NCBI GenBank assembly: GCA_020851115.1
Contig: JADZDJ010000086.1
Coordinates: 1 to 52,971, forward strand
DNA from: Pirellulales bacterium
GTDB lineage: Bacteria; Planctomycetota; Planctomycetia; Pirellulales; JADZDJ01
Length of the DNA: 52,971 bases
Reading direction: 5' to 3'
In this document: positions 11,882 to 27,038 of the stretch, piece after piece
Numbering within the stretch: the stretch's first letter is position 1
Layout of the letters: every line of letters starts with the position of its first letter
Made by a program: the position numbers and the translations under genes
Notes under the pieces: model-generated
What the model saw: the letters and a program-made list of their open reading frames with translations, nothing else
Databases searched by the model: none
Told to the model about the DNA's origin: nothing

Positions 11882-13207
11882 TCATGCTTTCGCCCACGGG
11901 AGGTTGCGGGTCAGTAGCGACAGCCGGACCAGACCAAGCGTTTGGTAAAGGTACTCGTCGGGGAAGCGTGCAGTTCCCTGACCGGCTATCTTGTGCTTGG
12001 CACACAACCACTGGCGGAGCCGGTGCGTGACGTGGCGGTCCACGGCACGGTAGGCTTTGCTCACTGGACCCAAGCGGAAGTAGTTCGCCCAGCCGCGCAG
12101 TTGGCGATTCAGGCGTCCCACCAGTTCGTCGGCGTCCCGTAAGGTGCGTCGTCGGGTCGTCTGCTGACCGATCGATTCGCAGAGTTTGCGAATCCTCGAC
12201 TGGGCCGGGCGTGTGCCCAAGTAGGCTCGTCCGGTTTTCGTCGAGTAGCAGCGGCCGAACGTGTAACCCAGGAAATCGAACGTTTGCTCGGGCACCCGGC
12301 AGAGTTTCGTTTTCCGCTCATTGACCATCAGTTTCAGTCGTGACATCATGGTTCGCATCGCCGCAGCCGCCTGTTCGGCTGAACCGCGGCAGCAGATCAC
12401 AAAGTCGTCGGCGTAGTTGACGATTTGAGCGCGAAACTGTTGCTGGCAGCCCAGCGTTTTCCAGCCCAGCACGAACCGCCGCATGTACAGATTCGCCAAC
12501 ATCGGTGAGATCGGAGCGCCTTGCGGGCTGCCTCGTCCTTCGTCCTTGTTGCGAGTAGTGCGATGCACATGCCCTCGGGCGTCTCGCTGTTCGACCGGCA
12601 CCACGAGCCAGAGTTTGACCAAGTGCAACACGGCCTTGTCGCTGATGCGACGGGCCAAGCACTGCATCAACTCGGCATGCGGGATCGAATCGAAGTAGCC
12701 CGACAGGTCTGCATCGATCACTTCCGTGTAACCGGTGTTGAGCAGCCGATGCACGGCCTGCACTGCATCCAGCGCGCTGCGCCCGGTGCGGTAGGCGTAT
12801 TGCTCCGGCTGCAGGTCGGCCTCGAAGATCGGTTCCAGCACGATCAGCAGCGCCGTTTGCACGACGCGATCTTTGATCGTCGGAATGCCCAGAGGCCGCC
12901 GTTTTCCATCTGGTTTGGGAATGTACACCCGACGTACTGGCTGAGGTTGGTACGTCTTCATCCTGAGTTCTTCCGCCAGTTCTTCCAACCACTTCATTTC
13001 ACCGTAGCGTTCGATGTCCTCAAAGGTTTGGCCGTCGACGCCCGGCTTGCCGCCGTTGATTCGGCAGCGTCGCAGCGCCAGCCACAGCACGTCTTTGCGG
13101 TACACCTTGTCGTACAGCGCGTAAAAGCGGAATTTGGGTTCTCCCTTCGCTTTGGCATGCAACGCCCGCTGCAGCTTCTGAACCGATTCGAGAGTTGGTA
13201 GACTCAT
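11882..13207 (-). CDS. ltrA: Group II intron reverse transcriptase/maturase
   Basis: ATG 13207 behind GAGGGA gives 441 residues; the open frame starts two codons earlier at a TTG. Reverse transcriptase blocks appear in order: [80 protein letters not shown], the catalytic YADD ([10 protein letters not shown]), then LGYTFG. The maturase (X) domain follows ([15 protein letters not shown]). The protein ends shortly after [14 protein letters not shown], with no HNH endonuclease domain. It splices and mobilises its host intron. All core residues are present, so activity is plausible. Confidence 0.95.
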
Positions 13208-13774
13208 CGTCAATCCCTCAGTCCCTTGCTGCTTCTTGCGTTGTCCTTGAACTGAGGCCCCTTCGCTCCACCGGCGTTACCCGGTTTCCTCGCTACTATG
13301 AACCTCTCCGTCACCCCATCGCAGCCCGACCTGGTCCCTCGCGGGCTATCGGTTGCCTGTCACGCGCTGGCACTGCTGGGGCTTCCCGTGTTGCGTTGGT
13401 TTCCTTGTCAACATGCCGTCGTCACTACCCCGGTGGAACTGCGGGGGTCTTATCGCTCATTTTTTTTGACCCTTCGCGGCCGCGGCCTTCCCCGTGGGCA
13501 CCGCCCGCAGGGTGGTCCAGGCGGGTCGGCTTCCACATCACCCTTTTCGAGGCCTGCTCGACGTTCACGTTTCCATTACGGCCTGTTGACTCGCTGAGCC
13601 GCCGAAGCGACCCTTTGACATCGAAGGCTTCGACAGTTTCGTCACCTCCACTGCCGCTCCGACTGCTTCCGGCTGGAGCGACCCTTTGCCGGGTGGGACT
13701 TGCACCCACGGAAAACCAACACCTTTTCACGGCGCACTGAATAGTTCGGGTTAGCCGATGCGAGCGGTCGGCGA

Positions 13775-16614: not shown

Positions 16615-17715
16615 TCAGGCCGCCCGGCGCATGAGCGACTGGCCGTTCAACTGGTAGATTTCCGCCAAAATTCTGGCGACCGGATCGAATAGTTCGTCGG
16701 AGATGGGCTGATTGAAGCCAATTTGACGGTAGAGCGATTCCGCGAGAGTGCGGCGCTCGATGCTTGGAACGCCGTGCTTGTCGGCCACGCCGCAAATGCG
16801 TTCGGCCACATCGCCCGCCCCTTTGGCAACTACTCTGGGCGCAGGCATTGTCGCCGGGTCGTAGGCAATGGCCACGGCCAATTGCCGACCGAATGTGACG
16901 ACGAATTTTGCCTGCGGCACGGCGGCCACCAAGCGGTCGATGCCTTGCTGACGCTGGATCGTTTTCCGCCGCGAAAGCACCTGCGGATCGCCTTGCTGGT
17001 TGCGAGTCTCTTCGCGCAGCTCTTGAGGCGTCATCCGCAAGTCGCGCTCAAGCTTCCAGCGCTGATAGCCATAGTCACCGATAGCAAGTGCTAGCAAGGC
17101 AACGGCAATTTTGAGGCATGTCCAATAGACGATCTCGACAATCCAGGCAGCAAGTGGCGATAGTTCGAGCGCTGCCGCATTGACGATCACTTCGCGCTGC
17201 TGCCAAAGACTGATATACGCCACCAGTAGGACGCAGGCCAACTTCAGCAGCGCCATCCCTAGGCGTTCGCCGCCACCAAGGGAAAAAACTCGACGCAGAC
17301 CGGCCAGCGGGTTGATACGTCCGACATCGGGTGCGAGCCGCTCGGGCAGCCAGCGAAAGCCGGTTTGGGCAAGATTCGCGACCATCGCAGCGACAAACAG
17401 CACACCCAGCAACGGAGCGATTGCCAAAACGATCTCGATCAGCAGCGATTGGCCACGATCGGCAGCGACAGACAACGGATCGGACGCAGAATGGCCCGTG
17501 ACATACAAAGTCCACGGTTGGCTGCCGAGATGTTCCTGCGCGAAACGGCCACAGAATGCGACAATTCTCTCGCCGAGCCAAGAGATTGCCAGCAGGCCGA
17601 GAACGAGCAGCGCTGCTGCCGCTAAGTCGTGGCTGTGGGCAACATGCCCCTCGCGCCGCGCATCGTCGCGTCGAGGCTGAGTGGGAGCAACGGTTTTTTC
17701 CGCAACGTCGGCCAT
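16615..17715 (-). CDS. flhB: Flagellar/type III export gate protein FlhB, lacking the NPTH motif
   Basis: ATG 17715 gives 366 residues. Four membrane segments fill ~35-205 and the cytoplasmic FlhB/SctU domain follows (MTPQELREETRNQQGDP). In the family this domain cuts itself between N and P of NPTH and switches export from rod/hook to filament proteins. Here the aligned residues at ~275-278 read FGRQ inside the otherwise normal VPQAKFVVT....LAVAIAYDP. Translation of the local DNA confirms this, and the frame is continuous on both sides. Self-cleavage should therefore fail. Distal gene of the export operon, 44 nt after fliR. Confidence 0.93.
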   Translation of the reverse strand: MADVAEKTVAPTQPRRDDARREGHVAHSHDLAAAALLVLGLLAISWLGERIVAFCGRFAQEHLGSQPWTLYVTGHSASDPLSVAADRGQSLLIEIVLAIAPLLGVLFVAAMVANLAQTGFRWLPERLAPDVGRINPLAGLRRVFSLGGGERLGMALLKLACVLLVAYISLWQQREVIVNAAALELSPLAAWIVEIVYWTCLKIAVALLALAIGDYGYQRWKLERDLRMTPQELREETRNQQGDPQVLSRRKTIQRQQGIDRLVAAVPQAKFVVTFGRQLAVAIAYDPATMPAPRVVAKGAGDVAERICGVADKHGVPSIERRTLAESLYRQIGFNQPISDELFDPVARILAEIYQLNGQSLMRRAA

Positions 17716-17759: not shown

Positions 17760-18536
17760 CTATGAACCGACGCGAATCGCGTCGAGAATCGTTTCTATGC
17801 CCGGCTCGATCTGTTCCTGGAACAGCCAAGCCATCGCGCCGACCGACGCCGCTAGCGCCATGAACGTGATCGCGATATTTAGCGCGAGTCCGATCGTGAA
17901 CGCGTTGATTTGCGGCAGCGTGCGGGTGATGAAACCAATCGCGATCGTCGATAGCAGCAGCGCGACCACTGCCGGGGCTGCGACGCGAATTCCGAGCGAA
18001 AAGCTCTCCGTCGCCAATGTCGCGAGCAGCATTGCAAGCGACGGCGGCGCTACCACACGACCCAGCGGCAGCGCGACATAGCTATCTAAGACGGCGCCGA
18101 TCAGCATCCGATGCCCGCCAACGATCACGTACACCGTCAGCGCCAGCATGTACAGCAAGTGCGAAAACAGCGGGGCGCTTGCTTCGAAATCGACCCCATA
18201 CACTTCAGCCAGCGAGAGGCCGCTCATTTGCGAGATGATTTGTCCGGCGATTTGCGCGCCGGCCAGCAGCAGCATCAAGCCCACGCCCAGCACTGCGCCG
18301 ATCAACGCTTCACCGGCCAGATGCAACGAAAAACCAAGCACGTTGCTAGGATCCGGCATGCCAGCCGACCACTGCATCGGCGTCAGCGTCAGCGCCAGCA
18401 TCGCGGGCAGCACCAGCCGCACCTGCCACGGCAGGCTGCGCACCCCGAACAGTGGCGCGGTAAGGCACATTCCCGCCATCCGCGCGGCGACAAGCAGAAA
18501 GGTAACCAGCGGAGTCCAATAAACGGCGGTTGTCAT
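17760..18536 (-). CDS. fliR: Flagellar/type III export gate protein FliR
   Basis: The 258-residue product has the hydrophobic profile and family residues of FliR/SctT (the LFGVRSLPWQVRLVLPAMLA loop, GLSLAEVYGVDFEA, and a final amphipathic helix). With FliP and FliQ it forms the export gate in the basal body. Start ATG 18536 lies only 4 nt after the fliQ stop, a sign of coupled translation. Length is normal. A short dispersed-type sequence separates it from flhB. Confidence 0.94.
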   Translation of the reverse strand: MTTAVYWTPLVTFLLVAARMAGMCLTAPLFGVRSLPWQVRLVLPAMLALTLTPMQWSAGMPDPSNVLGFSLHLAGEALIGAVLGVGLMLLLAGAQIAGQIISQMSGLSLAEVYGVDFEASAPLFSHLLYMLALTVYVIVGGHRMLIGAVLDSYVALPLGRVVAPPSLAMLLATLATESFSLGIRVAAPAVVALLLSTIAIGFITRTLPQINAFTIGLALNIAITFMALAASVGAMAWLFQEQIEPGIETILDAIRVGS

Positions 18537-18540
18537 GCGA

Positions 18541-18807
18541 TTACAACGACCCTGGAATATTTTCCCACACCTGGCGCGCGTAGTCGACGACCTGCTCCAG
18601 TAGCCACGGCAGCGTCAACGCCAGCACCAAGAGCATCGCGAGCAGTTTGGGAACCAGCGCGACGGTTTGTTCTTGCACTTGAGTGAGCGCTTGAAGCAGC
18701 GAAATCGCCAAACCGACAATCATGCCGATGGCCAGTACCGGCGCGCTGACCGTGAGCGCCAGCATCAGCGCTTCGCGCACCAAATCGACGGCGTCTTGAG
18801 GCTCCAT
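18541..18807 (-). CDS. fliQ: Flagellar/type III export gate protein FliQ
   Basis: From ATG 18807 the product is 88 residues with two long membrane segments, exactly the FliQ/SctS size (MEPQDAVDLVREAL, then IGMIVGLAISLLQALTQVQE). The open frame extends to 18873, but the added residues (HYSRFVIHHSPL) are translation of an ATTCACCATTC-type repeat, so the later start is better. The leader also has a small hairpin (CGGTTG GGG CAACCG at 18847-18861). Confidence 0.93.
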   Translation of the reverse strand: MEPQDAVDLVREALMLALTVSAPVLAIGMIVGLAISLLQALTQVQEQTVALVPKLLAMLLVLALTLPWLLEQVVDYARQVWENIPGSL

Positions 18808-18879
18808 GAGAGGCGAATGGTGAATGACAAACCGTGAGTAGTGAAGCGGTTGGGGCAACCGACGACCGACCATGAAACG

Positions 18880-19710
18880 TTACGCGATCGGTTGAAAACT
18901 TTGCATCAGCATTTCGACCACCAAATGCCAGCCATCGACGAGTACGAACAACAGCAGCTTGAAGGGCAGCGAAATCAGCGCCGGCGGCACCATCATCATG
19001 CCCATTGCCGTGATCACGCTGGCCACGACAAGGTCGAGAACGACGAACGGTAGAAAGATCTGAAAGCCGATCAGGAACGCCGTTTTCAGCTCGCTCAATA
19101 AAAACGCCGGCAACAGCACTTGCAGCGGCACGTCATCGTAGGTCTGCGGCTGCGAAGTTTGCAACGGCAGGTATTTGTAGAACATCCACACGTCGTCACT
19201 ATTGCCAGTGCGTTCGATTTGAGCGCTCATAAACCGGCGAATCGGTTGCGTTCCTCGTTGCCAGGCATCTGCGCCGCCAATTTGCTGCTCGGTGTAGGGC
19301 ACGATGGCGATGTCGTATGTTTGTTTCCAAACCGGCCACATGGTGAGCAGCGTAAGAAACATCGCCAGCGCCGTCGTAACTTGTGCAGGCGGAAGCTGCG
19401 GTGCCCCGAGGGCTTGCCGCAACAGCCCCAGAACAACGGCAATGCGCACGAAGCAGGTTGTCATTAGCAGCACTGCCGGCACGAGACTAAGCACGCCCAG
19501 CACAAGCATCGTTTTGAGCGACGACGACAGCCCTTCTGGGCTTGTCCACTGTTGGGGGCCGCCGGCGAGCGCCTCGGGGAGATCGAGTTTGGCTTGGATA
19601 TTTGCTCGCGCCGGTTCGGTGGAAGCTTGCTGAGCCCACGACTGCGACGACGCGCAACAGAGGATGACGCAAGCGGCAACGCCAAATTGATGTCTGAGGC
19701 GCAAATTCAT
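18880..19710 (-). CDS. fliP: Flagellar/type III export gate protein FliP
   Basis: The 276-residue protein has an N-terminal signal sequence (cleavable in FliP), then the family membrane segments. Landmarks are [36 protein letters not shown] and [20 protein letters not shown], with a final [20 protein letters not shown]. FliP forms the core of the export channel. The gene overlaps fliO by 4 nt, so translation is likely coupled. Confidence 0.96.
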
Positions 19711-20408
19711 GGTTTCGCCTCCCCGTCAGATACGGATTTCTTACGCACTGCCAACGCTGCCAAGCCGCCGCCAGCAGCCGTTTGTTCGGCGGGTGTGCTG
19801 CGCATCAGTTTACCAAAAACTTGGTCGAACGCGCCGTCGGCGGGGGATCGCTGCGGCTGGCATAGTTTGATCAGGCGCTCGACTTCGGCGGCATCTTCGA
19901 TTTCCGAAAGCGTCTCGACGCCGCCCTGCGAAATACAGACTAGCAATAGTTTGCGGCCGAATCTCAGGACGTACATCTGACTTCTCGCGGCTAGGGAAGC
20001 ACTGCCGAGCACTTCTATGACTCCGCTCGGCACGCGGCCGCCGCTGCGTGGCAATCCGCGACGCACCAGCCAGGCAACGCCAAAAAAGATTCCTAGCACG
20101 ATCGCGAGACTGCCGAGGACGGAAAATATTGCGCCTAGCGGACCCGATCGCCTGGATTTGTTCTCGTCGCTGGGTGGCGATAATTTTGTCGTAGATAAGG
20201 GCTGCCGCAAACGTGGATCGACCTCGCGCAGCGGCTCGATGTGAGTCGCCCGTTGAATGGCCCGGTCGCTTGACGCTGCACGTGCGGAATGAGGTGTGGA
20301 ATTGAGCGGCAACAGCGGCCCTTCGGCCAAACATCGATCCGCCTGGCACGCGACAACGATCGCCAGCGGTAAGAGCATCCAATGCAACGATCGTCGGCTG
20401 CCGCACAT
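19707..20408 (-). CDS. fliO: Flagellar biosynthesis protein FliO
   Basis: The 233-residue protein has a signal-like N-terminus, a low-complexity periplasmic stretch, one membrane segment ([20 protein letters not shown], ~95-115) and a cytoplasmic FliO domain ([20 protein letters not shown]). FliO assists assembly of the FliP ring. Position directly upstream of fliP with a 4-nt overlap supports the call. The N-terminal extension before the membrane segment is longer than in enteric FliO. Confidence 0.85.
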
Positions 20409-20445: not shown

Positions 20446-20706
20446 TCACGCTGCGCGCGGAAGCGCCTGCTCGGCGAACACTTCGGTCACGCGCACGCAA
20501 AAACGACCATCCAGCGTCAATAACTCGCCACGCGCGACGAGTCGGCCAGCGGCGTAGATCTCGACGGGTGAGTCGGTCGGCTCATCGAGCGTCATGACCT
20601 GTCCTGCCGACAGCCGTTGCGCTTCGCCGAGCGGGATCGAGCAGCGCCCCAGCACCACGGTGAATTGCCAGCCATCGACGCAAGTTCCAGCGGCGTGTTC
20701 AAGCAT
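20446..20706 (-). CDS. fliN: FliN-like SpoA-domain switch protein
   Basis: The 86-residue product is essentially a single SpoA (FliN/SctQ C-terminal) domain: FTVVLGRCSIPLGEAQRLSA, then VEIYAAGRLVARGELLTLDG and FCVRVTEVF. Position next to fliO matches flagellar loci. FliN forms the C-ring rim and docks FliH. It lacks any N-terminal extension, so it is at the small end of the family. The start is uncertain: ATG 20706 or a TTG six bases upstream, neither with a clear Shine-Dalgarno. Confidence 0.85.
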   Translation of the reverse strand: MLEHAAGTCVDGWQFTVVLGRCSIPLGEAQRLSAGQVMTLDEPTDSPVEIYAAGRLVARGELLTLDGRFCVRVTEVFAEQALPRAA

Positions 20707-20719
20707 GGGCAACGGTAGG

Positions 20720-20736
20720 GCAGGTTTTTAACCTGC
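20720..20736. repeat. Perfect 7-bp hairpin in the fliJ-fliN gap
   Basis: GCAGGTT, three-base loop, AACCTGC. It lies in a 146-nt gap in the middle of the export operon and is followed by a GC-rich stretch that looks like part of an intergenic repeat. No T-run follows on the minus strand, so it need not stop transcription. Confidence 0.5.
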
Positions 20737-20852
20737 TCAGCGTAAGAACGACCAGCCGACAGGCTCGTCCCACGGCGCGGCAATTCGCCAGGCAGACTTT
20801 TCGCCGAAATGGCCTGCGAAATCAATGGCAATTGATGGTTCGACTGGGCAAT

Positions 20853-21308
20853 TTAGCTATCAATTCGCGCAAAGTTGGCGACCATGGCCAACTCGTCATG
20901 CAATTTTGCTTCTCGGCGGGCCAGATCGAGACGGCGTCGAACCCGTTGCTGTTCTTGCAGCCGATCTAACAGCTTTACCTCTTGCTCGGCCGCGACGAGC
21001 GCCTGCCTGCGGTGCTCGACTTCGGCGGCCAACGTTTGGCAACGACGTTGAGCCTGGGATAGTTCGCTGCGCAGCGACTGCTCGTATCGCTGCGCATGTC
21101 GCAATTGACTCAGATCCAATTGGCCGGGACGAACGACGGATCGAGCCTGCGAGCGGATCGACTGTAGTTCATCATGCAGTTGCGCAATCTGGCAGGCAAG
21201 TTGGTCTTCGGCACGCTGCACTTCTAGCAATTCGAGCCGCCGTTGTTCGCGAACGCTGCGGCGGAATTGATGAACTTGATCGAAGCGGAAATGGGAGGTG
21301 TGCATCAT
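20853..21308 (-). CDS. fliJ: Flagellar export chaperone FliJ
   Basis: From ATG 21308 the product is about 151 residues, nearly all charged alpha-helix with a long coiled coil (RFDQVHQFRRSVREQRRLEL ... AEQEVKLLDRLQEQQRVRRR). This is the FliJ/SctO pattern. FliJ links the ATPase ring to the export gate. The identity rests on coiled-coil character, size and its place right after fliI. A GTG at 21356 would extend the N-terminus by 16 residues. Confidence 0.85.
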   Translation of the reverse strand: MMHTSHFRFDQVHQFRRSVREQRRLELLEVQRAEDQLACQIAQLHDELQSIRSQARSVVRPGQLDLSQLRHAQRYEQSLRSELSQAQRRCQTLAAEVEHRRQALVAAEQEVKLLDRLQEQQRVRRRLDLARREAKLHDELAMVANFARIDS

Positions 21309-21365
21309 ACGAAGGGAGTTTGGCGGCTCAATCACTCGTCGTCGGCCTTGGACCACATCGGTCGC

Positions 21366-22730
21366 TCAGCTCAATAGTTTGCTCCGCGCCGCTTCGTGCA
21401 GTGAGATCAAGGCAGCTTGCGACGCATCGAGCGTCGTTCGCTCTTCCAGGGATTGCCGCAGAAACCGCTGGCAGTCGTCGAGCATGTCGATGGCGACGTC
21501 GACTTTGCGATTCGCGCCGCGGCGATAGGCACCGATCGCAATTAGATCTTCGTGATCGCGGTAGGCTGCCAGCAATTCGCGTATCGTTTGTGCGGCGTTG
21601 CGATGCTGTTTTGTGGTGATGTCGGGCATCGTGCGGCTGATGCTTTCCAGCACGTCGATCGCCGGCCAGTGGGCTTGCGAGGCGAGCTTTCGCGACAGCC
21701 AAATGTGGCCATCGAGTAGTCCGCGCACGGCATCACTGATTGGCTCCTGTGGATCGTCGGCCTCGACCAGGACGGTATAAAAACCCGTGATGCTACCGCC
21801 GGAGGAGCGACCGGCCCGCTCCAGCAATTGCGGCAACATCGCAAATACCGACGGCGGATAGCCGCGCGCAGTCGGCGGCTCGCCGGCGGCCAGGCCAATC
21901 TCTCGCTGGGCCATCGCGAAGCGCGTCAGTGAATCCATCATCAGCAAGACATCGCGGCCGGCGTCGCGAAAATATTCGGCAATCGCCGTGGCGGTTTGAG
22001 CAGCTTGAATGCGTCGCAGCGCAGGTTCATCGCTGGTGGCCACCACGACGACGCTGCGCGCCAGGCCGGCCGGCCCTAAGTCGCGCTCGATGAATTCGCT
22101 CACCTCACGTCCGCGCTCGCCGACCAATGCAATCACATTGACGGCGGCCGATGTATAACGGGCCATCATTCCAAGGGTGACACTTTTTCCCACTCCGGAA
22201 CCGGCGAAAATCCCCAGTCGCTGCCCTTTACCGCAAGTCACCAGTGAGTCGATTGCGCGAATGCCGGTACTGAGCGGCTGATCGATGCGCGGTCGCTGCA
22301 TCGCCGGCGGCGGACGGCGGCTGGCATGAACGCGTTCCGTCAGCACCGGTTGCGGTCGGGCATCGACGGCGCGGCAATTGGCATCGACGACTCGTCCTAG
22401 CAGCGCTTCGCCAACCGGCAATCGGCGCGACGACCGAACCAATCGCACCCGATGACCGCGCCGCAATCCACGCAAGTCTCCCAGCGGATAGACGATCGTT
22501 TGATCGTCGCGAAAGCCAACGACTTCGCCACAAATCGCTTGGGAACTGTCGCGATCGATCTCGACGACGCTCCCAAGTGGCGCAGGAAAATCAGCGACGG
22601 CCACGGTCATGCCGGTGACTCGCACGACACTGCCTTGAACTCCCGCTGGAGTAATCTCATCGAGTTGTTCAAGCAGGTCGAACATGGAGGGAGAAAGTTG
22701 GCTCTCAGAGCTTGATGAGGGGGAGGTCAT
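21366..22730 (-). CDS. fliI: Flagellar/type III export ATPase FliI
   Basis: The 454-residue enzyme is related to the F1 beta subunit and energises export at the base of the machine. The P-loop GIFAGSGVGKS, the catalytic-glutamate region LVGERGREVSEFIE and Walker B DVLLMMDSLTRFA are intact. Also present are the PPSVFAMLPQLLERAG stretch and the C-terminal helical domain. Length is typical. ATG 22730 is 177 nt after fliH, a gap containing an ATTCACCATG-type repeat. Confidence 0.97.
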   Translation of the reverse strand: MTSPSSSSESQLSPSMFDLLEQLDEITPAGVQGSVVRVTGMTVAVADFPAPLGSVVEIDRDSSQAICGEVVGFRDDQTIVYPLGDLRGLRRGHRVRLVRSSRRLPVGEALLGRVVDANCRAVDARPQPVLTERVHASRRPPPAMQRPRIDQPLSTGIRAIDSLVTCGKGQRLGIFAGSGVGKSVTLGMMARYTSAAVNVIALVGERGREVSEFIERDLGPAGLARSVVVVATSDEPALRRIQAAQTATAIAEYFRDAGRDVLLMMDSLTRFAMAQREIGLAAGEPPTARGYPPSVFAMLPQLLERAGRSSGGSITGFYTVLVEADDPQEPISDAVRGLLDGHIWLSRKLASQAHWPAIDVLESISRTMPDITTKQHRNAAQTIRELLAAYRDHEDLIAIGAYRRGANRKVDVAIDMLDDCQRFLRQSLEERTTLDASQAALISLHEAARSKLLS

Positions 22731-22907: not shown

Positions 22908-23555
22908 TCAGTCCCTTAGCGCCAATTCCGCTTCAATCCGCCGCAGTTGCGTCTCGATCTGCAAATCAATTTCACCGTGGCGGGTCTCGATTCGACAGCC
23001 GCCGCGGGAAACGGTGACGTCGCCTACAATCTCGGCGCGGGCCATTGGCGCAATTTCTCGTACCACTTCGTCGACCGAATCTCCCAGCGATTGCGCGTCG
23101 AGCGGATGCAGCAGCACGCGAACTTGCGGGAGGCTTGCGCACATTTCCAGCGCTTCGCGAACATAAGCCAGCGTGATTGTCGGCGACTGTTCAATTTCGC
23201 GTCGAATGATTCGTTCTGCGATTTTCACGGACAGCGCAACCGCATTCTTCTGCCACGATTGCAACCACGCCTGGCGAGCCTCCGCAATTTGTTGAGTCGC
23301 TGCCGCCATCGCGGGCAGTAGCGATTGCAACTGTGTATGCATTGCTTGCTGGGCAGCTTCCGCGGCGGCGGCGCGGCCGGCTACTTCCGCCCGACATCGC
23401 ACCTCATCGGCCTGATCGCGGGCTTCGGCCATGATGGCGGCCGCTTCGGCCTTGGCATCAGCGATGATTTGGCCCAAGTCGGTGACGACATCGTCGAACC
23501 GATAAATCGCTGGTTCGACAGTTGGCACGGCTGTGGTCTTGAAGATGGTGGCCAT
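22908..23555 (-). CDS. fliH: Flagellar assembly protein FliH
   Basis: The 215-residue protein has an Ala/Glu-rich helical N-terminal half (IIADAKAEAAAIMAEARDQA) and the FliH/SctL C-terminal domain (SVKIAERIIRREIEQSP, then RGGCRIETRHGEIDLQIETQ). FliH regulates FliI and anchors it to FliN. It lies between fliG (33 nt upstream) and fliI, the usual order. Confidence 0.92.
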   Translation of the reverse strand: MATIFKTTAVPTVEPAIYRFDDVVTDLGQIIADAKAEAAAIMAEARDQADEVRCRAEVAGRAAAAEAAQQAMHTQLQSLLPAMAAATQQIAEARQAWLQSWQKNAVALSVKIAERIIRREIEQSPTITLAYVREALEMCASLPQVRVLLHPLDAQSLGDSVDEVVREIAPMARAEIVGDVTVSRGGCRIETRHGEIDLQIETQLRRIEAELALRD

Positions 23556-23588: not shown

Positions 23589-24629
23589 TCAGGCGACGGC
23601 GGTTAAGTGAATCGGCGGCCCGCCATGCAGCCGGCCAGCGGCGGCAAGTTGCCCAGCTAATTCGGCCAGTGACGTTTGCGCGGACTCAATATCGGCCAGC
23701 CGCGTTGGACCGAGCTCGGCGATGCCGCGGGCAAATCGCTGCGAATCGCCCGGCGGCAGGCAATCGACCAGCTTGGCGACCAGTTCCGCATCGGCTCCGG
23801 CAAACGCCAGCACCACAACTTCCGGCGCAGCGGCCTGCACGACCCGCAACAGGCCATCGCCGCCGATTCGACAGACTTCGTCGAAACTGAACTGTGGCAC
23901 GAGCTTTGGCGGCGTATTAAGCTTTCCGGCCAGTGGCCGATCGTGGCGAGCGAGGTTCGACAGAATCTGACGCCGCGCCGTTTCGTCGGCAGAATTCAAA
24001 ATGACGGAGACGGTTGCCAATCCCGACGCTCGCGACGAGGCCGCATGTTGCTGAACGCGGGCCATGACGAGCTGTTCAATTTCGTCCAGCACTTCGCGGC
24101 GAGCCGGTTCCAAGCCCGTTAAACGGCGAATCACGTCCGCTTGAATGGCCGCTGGCAGCCGCGCCAAAACATCGCCTGCACGGTGCGCCGACAGATTTGC
24201 GATCACGACTGCGATGATTTGTGGGTGCTCCATTTCCAGAACGTTGGCAAGCGTGCCGAGATCAACTGTTTCGACCGTCTGAAAGGCTGGTCCAACCCAA
24301 AGCGGTTGATCCGGCGTCCGACGACTGGGCGCAGCGCCCAAAGCGTCTCTCCCGCGCAGCGCGTTTGGGGCAGCAATCGTCCGAGCCAATTCGTCCGTGA
24401 GTTCCAGCCCTGGCGGGTCGAGTTCCGCCGGGAGCCCTTCCCCTCGCACGAACTCATCGACAATCGCCTGTTGCTCGCGATCGTCGATTTCTCCGAGCCT
24501 ACCCATTTCACGGCGAACTTCTGCGGCGACCTCGCTGGGCATTTCGGCTAGCAACAAGACGACGGCTTCGGCGTCGAGGGCCGAAGCGAGAATTGCGGCT
24601 TTCCGATAAGGCGAATGGTCGTCGCGCAT
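23589..24629 (-). CDS. fliG: Flagellar rotor switch protein FliG with an altered torque ridge
   Basis: The 346-residue protein has an N-terminal FliF-binding part (SPYRKAAILASALDAEAVVL), the middle-domain EHPQIIAVVIANL (the family EHPQ motif) and a C-terminal domain ending GPTRLADIESAQTSL. Aligned without gaps to E. coli FliG through GPxRL, the ridge residues K264, R281, D288 and D289 become A, G, R and G (residues ~277, 294, 301, 302). R297 is kept. Those charges face the stator in E. coli. The structural cores look sound, so it is likely a real but divergent rotor protein. It starts 10 nt after fliF. Confidence 0.9.
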   Translation of the reverse strand: MRDDHSPYRKAAILASALDAEAVVLLLAEMPSEVAAEVRREMGRLGEIDDREQQAIVDEFVRGEGLPAELDPPGLELTDELARTIAAPNALRGRDALGAAPSRRTPDQPLWVGPAFQTVETVDLGTLANVLEMEHPQIIAVVIANLSAHRAGDVLARLPAAIQADVIRRLTGLEPARREVLDEIEQLVMARVQQHAASSRASGLATVSVILNSADETARRQILSNLARHDRPLAGKLNTPPKLVPQFSFDEVCRIGGDGLLRVVQAAAPEVVVLAFAGADAELVAKLVDCLPPGDSQRFARGIAELGPTRLADIESAQTSLAELAGQLAAAGRLHGGPPIHLTAVA

Positions 24630-24639
24630 GGGTTCTCAT

Positions 24640-26229
24640 TCAGTTCGTCGAGCCGATCCAACGGCGCAGGACATCGGCGGCAGCGCCGGGATTGTCGCGT
24701 ACGAATTCGCTGAGTTCCTCTCGCTGCGCCGTTGGGCGCAAGGTGCGGGATTGTCGAGCAAATGACAGCGAAGGCTCTCCCGGCAATTCGTGCGAATCGT
24801 CGACGTCATCCAGCCCCCCAGCGGGCAATGGCGGCGAATTGCCGCGCACGGCGATACGGACAATGGATCGCAGCACGAGCAGACCCAACACGAGCGATAC
24901 CGCCGCAATCACCAATCCGCGATTTTCATCGAGCCAAGCGAACGATGGCTCGGACGGCGGCAATTGAGCAATCTCGACGAGCGGCGCAGTGGGAAATACC
25001 GTCACCGTGACGGCCGAATCCGTCTGACCATTTTCCTCTTGCGGCATCGGCAGCACCTGCATGACGTGCCGTTTCAATTCGCCGCGGATTTCGTCTTCGA
25101 TGTTCGCCAATTCGCCCAGGTCGGGCTGCGCGGAAGCATGGCTAGCGCGGCGCAATCGCCATTGTTGCTCGAAATAGCTGCGCGGCACGGCTATCGAAAC
25201 GGTCACCCGCTTCGGCGTCAGCCCTGCGAGCCGCACTTGTCGGATTTCATAACCTTCTGCGTCGGTCAAATCGATCGTCGCCGGAGCATTCGCCATGCCC
25301 AGATCGAGTTGGCGCATACCATTCAAGATCGCCGGCGCGTGGATCGGGTCGCGGTTTGGACGATCCGCGGTGGGAGGCTTCACGTCGATCTTCACTGAGC
25401 GCGACGAATTTTCCACTTCGGTGTGCAGCTCGACATTGACGGTCGCCAAGGCCCCAGGCACGAATTTCAGCGCCGCCTCAATTTTTTCTCGATATTGCCG
25501 CTCGTATTCCTGTTGTCGCGTCGCATAAACGTCGTGGCCAGCATCGCCATCGCTGGCCTCTGCGCCGCCAGAATAGGTCTTGCCTTGCACATCGACGAGT
25601 GTGACCTCGCTTGGCGATAAAAACAGCGGCGGCCCGACGACGTTTTGAATCTTGCGCGCCTGCTGCGGCGTCAGCGACTCTTGGCCGCGTGGCTTGACGG
25701 TCACACACGCGCGCACTTCCCGCTGGCGGTTGGGAAAAGACGGTTGCTGCACATCGTACATCACTGTCGCCCATTCGACATATCCCATGCTCATGATGAC
25801 TTTCGAAAGCATGTCTTGCACCGCGATTTTCATCATATCGTCGCGTCTTTTTCGATCGACAAACGGGCTGCTCGATTCCAGCATCTTGCGCATGCTGTCG
25901 CCAAAGTTGTGCGGCAAAGCATTGGCGTCGGCCAACACCGCCAGGTATTGCGATTGGTGGGCGCGCGGAACGCGAATCCGTTCGCCAGCGATAGAAAAAT
26001 CGTTCAGGTTGGCCTTGGCAAAAGCGGCCTGCATGGCAATGAGTTCGTGGGGCGCGATTGAACTGTCGCCCAGCAAGAAGACCTGATCGCCCGAGACTCC
26101 CGCATTCAGCAAGTAGGCGGCGCCAATCGCAATCAGCAGAACAGCCACTCCGGCAACCATCCGCGATTGTGGCGACAAGCCGCGCACTAGCACGGCAAGC
26201 CGAGACAGCGCTTCTTGAAGGTGGTTCAT
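24640..26229 (-). CDS. fliF: Flagellar MS-ring protein FliF
   Basis: The 529-residue protein has one N-terminal membrane segment (MVAGVAVLLIAIGAAYLLNA), the ring-building domains (RIRVPRAHQSQYLAVLADAN; ASVTVKPRG-like VRACVTVKPRG; QQARKIQNVVGPPLFLSPSE) and a second membrane segment near residue 450. A cytoplasmic end EELSEFVRDNPGAAADVLRR is typical of FliG binding. It forms the membrane ring that holds the export gate. Length is normal. The gap upstream (163 nt) contains repeat-like sequence. Confidence 0.93.
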   Translation of the reverse strand: MNHLQEALSRLAVLVRGLSPQSRMVAGVAVLLIAIGAAYLLNAGVSGDQVFLLGDSSIAPHELIAMQAAFAKANLNDFSIAGERIRVPRAHQSQYLAVLADANALPHNFGDSMRKMLESSSPFVDRKRRDDMMKIAVQDMLSKVIMSMGYVEWATVMYDVQQPSFPNRQREVRACVTVKPRGQESLTPQQARKIQNVVGPPLFLSPSEVTLVDVQGKTYSGGAEASDGDAGHDVYATRQQEYERQYREKIEAALKFVPGALATVNVELHTEVENSSRSVKIDVKPPTADRPNRDPIHAPAILNGMRQLDLGMANAPATIDLTDAEGYEIRQVRLAGLTPKRVTVSIAVPRSYFEQQWRLRRASHASAQPDLGELANIEDEIRGELKRHVMQVLPMPQEENGQTDSAVTVTVFPTAPLVEIAQLPPSEPSFAWLDENRGLVIAAVSLVLGLLVLRSIVRIAVRGNSPPLPAGGLDDVDDSHELPGEPSLSFARQSRTLRPTAQREELSEFVRDNPGAAADVLRRWIGSTN

Positions 26230-26392: not shown

Positions 26393-26938
26393 TCACGCGG
26401 CCGCTTCCAGCGCCCGGTGTGGAATACGAATCGTTCTCGCGATGCCGCCATCTGGACAGTTGCGGGCTGTGATTTCGCCGCCGTGCGCTGCCGCCAACCG
26501 ATGAGCGAGAGCCACAGCGCCACCGTGCCATTTGCTGGTGCCGGCAGGCGTTGCAGCGACAGCAGCATTCCGAAATCCAGTGCTGTCGGATTGGCCGTTG
26601 TCGGCAATTTCCAATTCAAATCCGTGCGGGCCGATATGCGACGTCACATACAACTCGCCACCGTCAGGCATGGCTTCAAGCGCGTGCAACGTCATGCCCA
26701 GTACGCAGCGTCGAAGCATTTCGCCATCCGCCCAGGCCACATGCGCCAGCGGCACATCGACTGCGGTTCGCACGGTTTGACTCTCTAGCCGAGAAGATAA
26801 GGCTTGGAGTACTTCGTCGACCAATGGCCGAACTTCGACGCGCTTCCATTGAACCGGCCGCAAGGCCGAGCGAGCGACAGGCGATTCGGCGGAGGGCTGC
26901 CCCTCGTCGGGAGCGACATATAGGCGTGGATAATTCAT
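26393..26938 (-). CDS. Histidine-kinase-like ATPase domain protein without a phosphoacceptor domain
   Basis: ATG 26938 gives 181 residues. The C-terminal two thirds form an HATPase_c domain: the N-box region HALEAMPDGGELYV, the G1-type DNGQ and a GGAVALAHRLAAAHGGEIT helix. The N-terminal part has a dimerisation-like helix (VEVRPLVDEVLQALSSRLES) but no histidine box. It is first in line before fliF, with a possible promoter at 27009-27038. It could be a regulator or anti-sigma-type kinase for the locus; no target is known. A longer frame to 27028 exists but is poorly supported. Confidence 0.75.
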   Translation of the reverse strand: MNYPRLYVAPDEGQPSAESPVARSALRPVQWKRVEVRPLVDEVLQALSSRLESQTVRTAVDVPLAHVAWADGEMLRRCVLGMTLHALEAMPDGGELYVTSHIGPHGFELEIADNGQSDSTGFRNAAVAATPAGTSKWHGGAVALAHRLAAAHGGEITARNCPDGGIARTIRIPHRALEAAA

Positions 26939-27008
26939 GAGCAAAGCAACTACGAAGTGATAGCGCGAAAGCGCAAGCGACGGCCGCCGGCGCAAAAATG
27001 AGGGCGGG

Positions 27009-27038
27009 TTTGTACCTAAACTAGCCAAATGTTGTCAA
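27009..27038 (-). promoter_or_regulatory. Possible sigma-70-type promoter of the flagellar locus
   Basis: On the minus strand TTGACA (27033-27038) is followed after 18 nt by TACAAA (27009-27014). The -35 is perfect, the -10 matches at four of six positions. Transcription would start about 60 nt before ATG 26938. The remaining gap to 27464 shows nothing else. Confidence 0.45.

Follow-up and report, generated by a model that had tools for sequence, protein, structure and literature searches.

A flagellar-type export gate with an FlhB that lacks the self-cleavage site in a planctomycete without recognised flagellin, rod, hook and FliK genes

Results

An FlhB with FGRQ at the self-cleavage position

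The window, by which we mean the whole analysed stretch of 52,971 nucleotides, carries a contiguous export operon on the minus strand, in which an flhB-like gene follows fliR (Table 1). It belongs to a draft genome (G000) of 304 contigs with a completeness of 98.8%. In the flagellum, FlhB cuts itself between N and P, and at hook completion FliK ejects the C-terminal fragment, whereupon export passes from rod and hook to filament subunits. The reading frame of the window flhB is uninterrupted and encodes the transmembrane part and a complete C-domain, covering positions 2-334 of the 335 positions of the PF01312 profile. The codons at 16893-16882 of the minus strand read TTC GGT CGG CAA and specify F277, G278, R279 and Q280. 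Salmonella FlhB from the PDB aligns with the window protein from end to end, with N269-P270-T271-H272 opposite FGRQ without a gap, and the flanking residues, VVT before and LAVAIAYD after the site, both match the Salmonella protein. The codons and this alignment confirm the claim of the first-pass annotation that FGRQ has replaced an NPTH-type motif between conserved flanks. Its baseline needs adjustment, as NPTH is usual elsewhere but the ancestral motif of this lineage is NPTE, as in most flagellated relatives of the order, including G002.

Table 1 Features of the export operon in the window, and loci of second FlhBs in flagellated genomes
Feature	Position	Strand	Evidence or remark
flhB-like gene, 368 aa	16615..17721	-	PF01312 E 1e-92; sole FlhB in genome; AF2 mean pLDDT 89
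FGRQ at NPTE/NPTH self-cleavage position, residues 277-280	16882..16893	-	Translation and alignments
fliR, export gate	17760..18536	-	PF01311, TIGR01400 above cut-off
fliQ, export gate	18541..18873	-	PF01313, TIGR01402 above cut-off
fliP, export gate	18880..19710	-	PF00813, TIGR01103 above cut-off
fliO	19707..20408	-	PF04347 E 1e-12
fliN, C-terminal domain alone, 88 aa (204 aa in G002)	20446..20712	-	PF01052
fliJ/fliN junction; motE-like, fliK, flgD, flgE, fliL absent	20713..20852	-	Compared with G002:C43, L117
fliJ	20853..21356	-	PF02050 E 1e-14
fliI export ATPase, P-loop AGSGVGKS intact	21366..22730	-	TIGR01026 above cut-off
fliH	22908..23555	-	PF02108
fliG, divergent	23589..24629	-	PF14841, PF01706, PF14842; TIGR00207 below cut-off
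fliF (MS ring), divergent	24640..26229	-	PF01514 E 3e-10; G001 orthologue phmmer E 3e-106
HATPase-domain protein without recognised dimerisation domain	26393..27028	-	PF02518 weak; directly upstream of fliF
Second-FlhB loci of 18 flagellated planctomycetes	L205-L220, L222, L105		NPTH FlhB elsewhere in genome

The window protein scores below the curated cut-offs of both full-length families, with 275.7 against 349.25 bits for TIGR00328 (flhB) and 222.8 against 358 bits for TIGR01404 (SctU). It also scores below that of TIGR00789 (57.3 against 117.35 bits), which describes FlhX-type proteins with a C-domain and no transmembrane part, and the window FlhB is full-length. Neither a second flhB nor a separate C-domain gene was found in the 98.8% complete genome, which holds a single PF01312 match; the second, intact flhB that had been named beforehand as evidence against the claim is therefore absent. 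In EscU, the N262A variant remains uncut and P263A is partly cut, showing that the Asn is required for cleavage (PMC3189125). Because FGRQ stands in its place, self-cleavage by the Asn-Pro route is not expected, and we infer from the sequence that the window FlhB is left uncleaved in vivo.

The hook and ruler block is missing from a contiguous operon

All reading frames of the window operon are open. In the flagellated relative G002, the operon runs fliG-fliH-fliI-fliJ-motE-like-fliK-flgD-flgE-fliL-fliN-fliO-fliP-fliQ-fliR-flhB. In both G000 and G001 (L074), fliJ is followed directly by fliN; the genes for the ruler, hook cap, hook and FliL are gone, and the flanking export genes are kept. Since the block is missing inside a contiguous operon in both genomes, its absence cannot be put down to a contig gap or to random decay.

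The family of the HATPase-domain protein adjoins fliF in 12 flagellum-less loci, namely the window and L074, L079, L087, L089, L093, L103, L106-L109 and L120. The most reduced loci (L079, L089, L103 and L106-L109, of families f7 and f10) retain only HATPase-fliF-(fliO)-fliP-fliQ-fliR-flhB, with an flhB that lacks the C-domain; their surroundings showed neither fliG nor fliH nor a credible fliI. A few kilobases downstream of the window operon, at 11882-13213, lies an open reading frame that by eye resembles a group II intron reverse transcriptase/maturase.

The genome keeps an export apparatus without recognised substrates

Profile searches of the G000 genome returned no match to flagellin (PF00669), the rod and hook Flg_bbr_C proteins (PF06429) or FliK (PF02120), and the same searches match G002 and other flagellated relatives. 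All of these proteins are also absent from G001. The working flagellum assumed by the first-pass annotation is accordingly not borne out for G000. What the genome keeps is the export gate, the export ATPase, FliF, the C-ring proteins, of which FliM is divergent, and a FliA-type sigma factor. FlhA is present as one complete copy (800.8 bits against an equivalog cut-off of 772.1). On contig C197 of G000 (L076, 2469-6833), flhA is followed by a gene for a fusion ATPase of an FlhF N-domain with a MinD-like part and by a FliA/WhiG sigma factor gene above cut-off.

Two routes to candidate substrates were dropped. A sigma-28 promoter pattern derived from flagellated relatives gave 4 matches in G000 and 5 in the reversed control, that is, no enrichment. 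The conserved neighbours that were checked, the HATPase gene aside, proved to be housekeeping or variable genes (sulfotransferase, esterase, lactate/malate dehydrogenase and thioredoxin-like).

Loss of the N-P site is associated with absence of flagellin

The GTDB family of G000 consists of three genomes. G002 has flagellin and an FlhB with NPTE; G001, of the same genus as G002, has no flagellin and carries NQAE; and G000 has no flagellin and carries FGRQ. As G001 and G002 are congeneric, G001 and G000 seem to have lost the site independently. NPTE is the motif of most flagellated relatives within the order. More widely, NPTE, and occasionally NPTQ or NPTR, stands instead of NPTH in flagellated Pirellulales and some other planctomycetes (L002, L004, L008, L012, L125-L141 and others), so that the His of the motif is replaced in lineages whose flagella appear complete. 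We found no report of NPTE or of FlhB-site loss in planctomycetes in the open-licence literature.

Among 397 genomes of the class, FlhB was found in 306 and flagellin in 212, and 130 planctomycete FlhB sequences were aligned. NP is kept in 61 of the 62 FlhBs counted as flagellar (as NPTE, NPTH and one NPTR) and is absent in 47 of the 50 FlhBs of flagellin-negative genomes, 19 of which have a degenerate site (FGRQ, NQAE, SPTE, GPSG, DGKG, DAEG and others) and 28 of which end before the C-domain. The proposed comparison with other planctomycete FlhBs thus bore out the loss as recurrent, in G001 and in 45 further flagellin-negative genomes besides the window. The association of NP with flagellar status gives a Fisher probability of 1e-26, uncorrected for kinship. 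The three flagellin-negative keepers of NP are G049, whose flhB locus still has flgE and fliL; G108 (NPTE), whose contig ends beside fliO; and G288 (NPTH). A reverse exception is the flagellin-positive G241, in which the sole FlhB found lacks the C-domain. Eight named GTDB loci (L142, L156, L162, L166, L169, L172, L175 and L181), fetched separately and partly from the same genomes as the 130-sequence set, likewise have no fliK-to-fliL block and an FlhB without NP or without the C-domain.

A quick tree built from the transmembrane part of FlhB shows no fewer than 10 changes of the NP label, at least 4 of which are forced by well-supported branches. A strict independent-pairs test on well-supported branches yielded 6 pairs, of which 3 agree, none oppose and 3 are uninformative (p 0.25). 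The association between NP and the flagellum is strong but phylogenetically clustered. Gate operons persist across many families among the flagellin-negative genomes.

Flagellated genomes with two FlhBs

Eighteen flagellated genomes encode two FlhBs, and every one of them has a canonical NPTH copy. The second FlhB is truncated before the C-domain in 17 genomes and carries DGSD in the remaining one (G323); in most of the 18, its gene lies within its own fliP-fliQ-fliR-flhB operon. The motif therefore follows the flagellar FlhB, even within one genome. The persistence of a switch-less gate beside a flagellum is the strongest evidence against a mere relic, and the second gate would presumably be a working secretion apparatus. 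Separately, the flagellated genomes G005, G011, G016, G324 and G372 encode an additional, FlhX-like protein, about 90-120 aa long, whose match is confined to the FlhB C-domain.

Selection and the possible origin of the FGRQ site

Between G000 and G001, dS is close to saturation, and dN/dS, where it could be calculated, is about 0.2-0.35; the close, C-domain-less pair L166/L169 gives a dN of 0.013 and a dS of 0.082. The low dN/dS and the open frames together indicate purifying selection. The G000/G001 comparison shows faster evolution of FlhB than does the G001/G002 comparison.

Read as its reverse complement, TTGCCGACCGAA, the site shares 9 of its 12 bases, in a single run, with AACCCGACCGAA, the NPTE codons of relatives. 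The direct comparison gives no more than 5, and about 1.2% of the in-frame 12-mers of the operon do equally well as the inverted site. The resemblance is suggestive only: a micro-inversion followed by few substitutions would explain four changes at once between conserved flanks, and the motif may have been lost through such an inversion or through a template switch. On the coding strand, an imperfect hairpin, GGCAATTGGCC-GT-GGCCATTGCC, overlaps the site and extends downstream of it.

A C-domain that is predicted to fold and retains the docking-pocket residues

Apart from the site, the C-domain of the window FlhB retains 90% of the positions conserved in flagellated FlhBs, and AlphaFold2 predicts it to be folded (pLDDT about 96). 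Its best matches in the PDB are EscU P263A, the autocleavage-inactive CT091, EscU N262D and N262A, and the Shewanella FlhB C-domain; the YscU C-domain is also matched. The early-substrate docking pocket of Salmonella FlhB is formed by A286, P287, A341 and L344 (PMC13344023), and in the alignment all four residues are conserved in the window protein as A294, P295, A349 and L352. In Salmonella, FlhB N269A blocks the switch and locks export in the early mode, and flhB-deltaCCD exports in the late mode when Fluke is also absent (PMC13344023). An uncleavable FlhB with a retained docking pocket leads us to infer a single-mode, early-type gate: by analogy, the window FlhB should be an early-mode gate, and its C-domain-less relatives should be without the early-substrate dock. 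Of the two outcomes offered by the first-pass annotation, a lock on a single export mode agrees with an N269A-like state, but another switch finds no support and would be purposeless without a flagellum.

The resemblance to the Salmonella mutants has its bounds. The window FlhB is likewise uncleavable, but its state is natural and comes from a genome without FliK, whereas N269A is a laboratory mutant. The C-domain-less relatives resemble flhB-deltaCCD, but theirs is a natural state repeated in evolution, and late export in Salmonella needs the absence of Fluke.

Discussion

Collectively, we propose, with a probability of roughly three in four, that the window FlhB is part of a flagellum-derived, single-mode export gate that was kept under purifying selection after the loss of rod, hook, filament and FliK. 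The flagellum, together with its FliK ruler, would have been lost first, and the export apparatus would have stayed in place. With no hook, ruler or filament left to switch for, the cut would have become purposeless and its site would have decayed. The window FlhB, uncleaved and with its C-domain otherwise intact, would form an early-type gate exporting a putative substrate, powered by FliHIJ and the proton-motive force. In many relatives, decay would have advanced until the entire C-domain was deleted. The gate would still secrete protein.

The gate and ATPase complex might instead serve a non-secretory role in pili, envelope assembly or budding, an unlikely reading although one with a precedent: twitching of the non-flagellated Lysobacter needs flhA, flhB, fliI and fliR, and not fliP or fliQ (PMC7277350). 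The HATPase-domain gene adjoining fliF, which suggests regulation, would also suit it. However, the Lysobacter apparatus still exported flagellin, and most of the loci examined here conserve the complete FliPQR pore, an indication of transport. We consider it rather improbable that the operon is a functionless remnant in which FlhB drifts towards a pseudogene after flagellum loss. Decay would account for the missing substrate genes, the shortened fliN, the divergence of FliM, FliF and FliG, and the faster change of FlhB between G000 and G001. Yet no frame of the window operon is interrupted, dN/dS stays far below 1, though with dS near saturation, and FlhA, FliP, FliQ and FliR reach their equivalog cut-offs. 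Furthermore, flagellin-negative genomes of many families have gate operons, and 18 flagellated genomes keep a second gate protein.

The technical explanations fare worse than the decay of a relic. That four codons changed together, and that the site resembles the ancestral codons in inverted orientation, could point to an assembly or sequencing error at these 12 bases, but the frame is intact, the flagellum-less G001 lost its motif differently (NQAE) and the class-wide pattern predicts the loss, so that an error is very improbable. The conclusion rests on more than the 12 bases at 16882-16893. Least probable of all is that a flagellum is present, with its genes missing from the draft and an FlhB with a changed switch. 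The assembly is fragmented into 304 contigs, but flagellin, hook, rod and FliK genes are absent from both G000 and G001, and the missing block is internal to contiguous operons.

The proposed single-mode gate can be placed among known systems. With flagellar FlhB (TIGR00328; Salmonella), the window protein shares the operon position after fliR, the full-length fold, the transmembrane part and the docking residues; it differs in having no N-P site, in scoring below the curated cut-off and in coming from a genome without flagellum and FliK. With the SctU proteins (TIGR01404) of non-flagellar type III secretion systems, it shares the FlhB/SctU ancestry and the prospect of export without a flagellum; G000 differs from these systems in that the SctU cut-off is not reached, FliP, FliQ, FliR and FlhA score as flagellar, and the gene order, with fliO, fliG and fliJ, is flagellar. 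The closest precedents are Lysobacter (PMC7277350) and Chlamydia pneumoniae with its orthologues of flagellar proteins (PMC2830194). Lysobacter enzymogenes OH11 also keeps an export apparatus without flagellin, functional there, but it belongs to another phylum, and the planctomycete pattern spans many families. Chlamydia pneumoniae, of the same superphylum, also keeps flagellar export proteins without a flagellum; the abstract of that study names only three orthologues (FliI, FlhA and FliF) beside a type III secretion system, whereas G000 has a complete gate. On a switch-less flagellar-type gate of Planctomycetota, we found nothing in the open-licence literature.

G000 shows the pattern of a switch-less gate, with the gate genes kept, an FlhB without NP, and no adjacent hook and ruler genes. 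For the phylum as a whole, we advance more tentatively, at somewhat less than even odds, that Planctomycetota possess a dedicated flagellum-derived secretion apparatus with a putative substrate of its own, in which switching was lost repeatedly by two ways, through an uncleavable FlhB or through an FlhB without the C-domain, and which, in certain species, works alongside a genuine flagellum.

To our knowledge, the FlhB/SctU switch is regarded as near-universal in type III export. The planctomycetes offer a natural experiment on a large scale: cleavage is retained with the flagellum and lost without it, even between two copies in one genome. The pattern agrees with a recent model in which the sole purpose of cleavage is removal of the C-domain. 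In conclusion, these observations suggest that a flagellum-derived gate, so far uncharacterised, is widespread in a phylum of unusual cell biology, and make its substrate a testable question.
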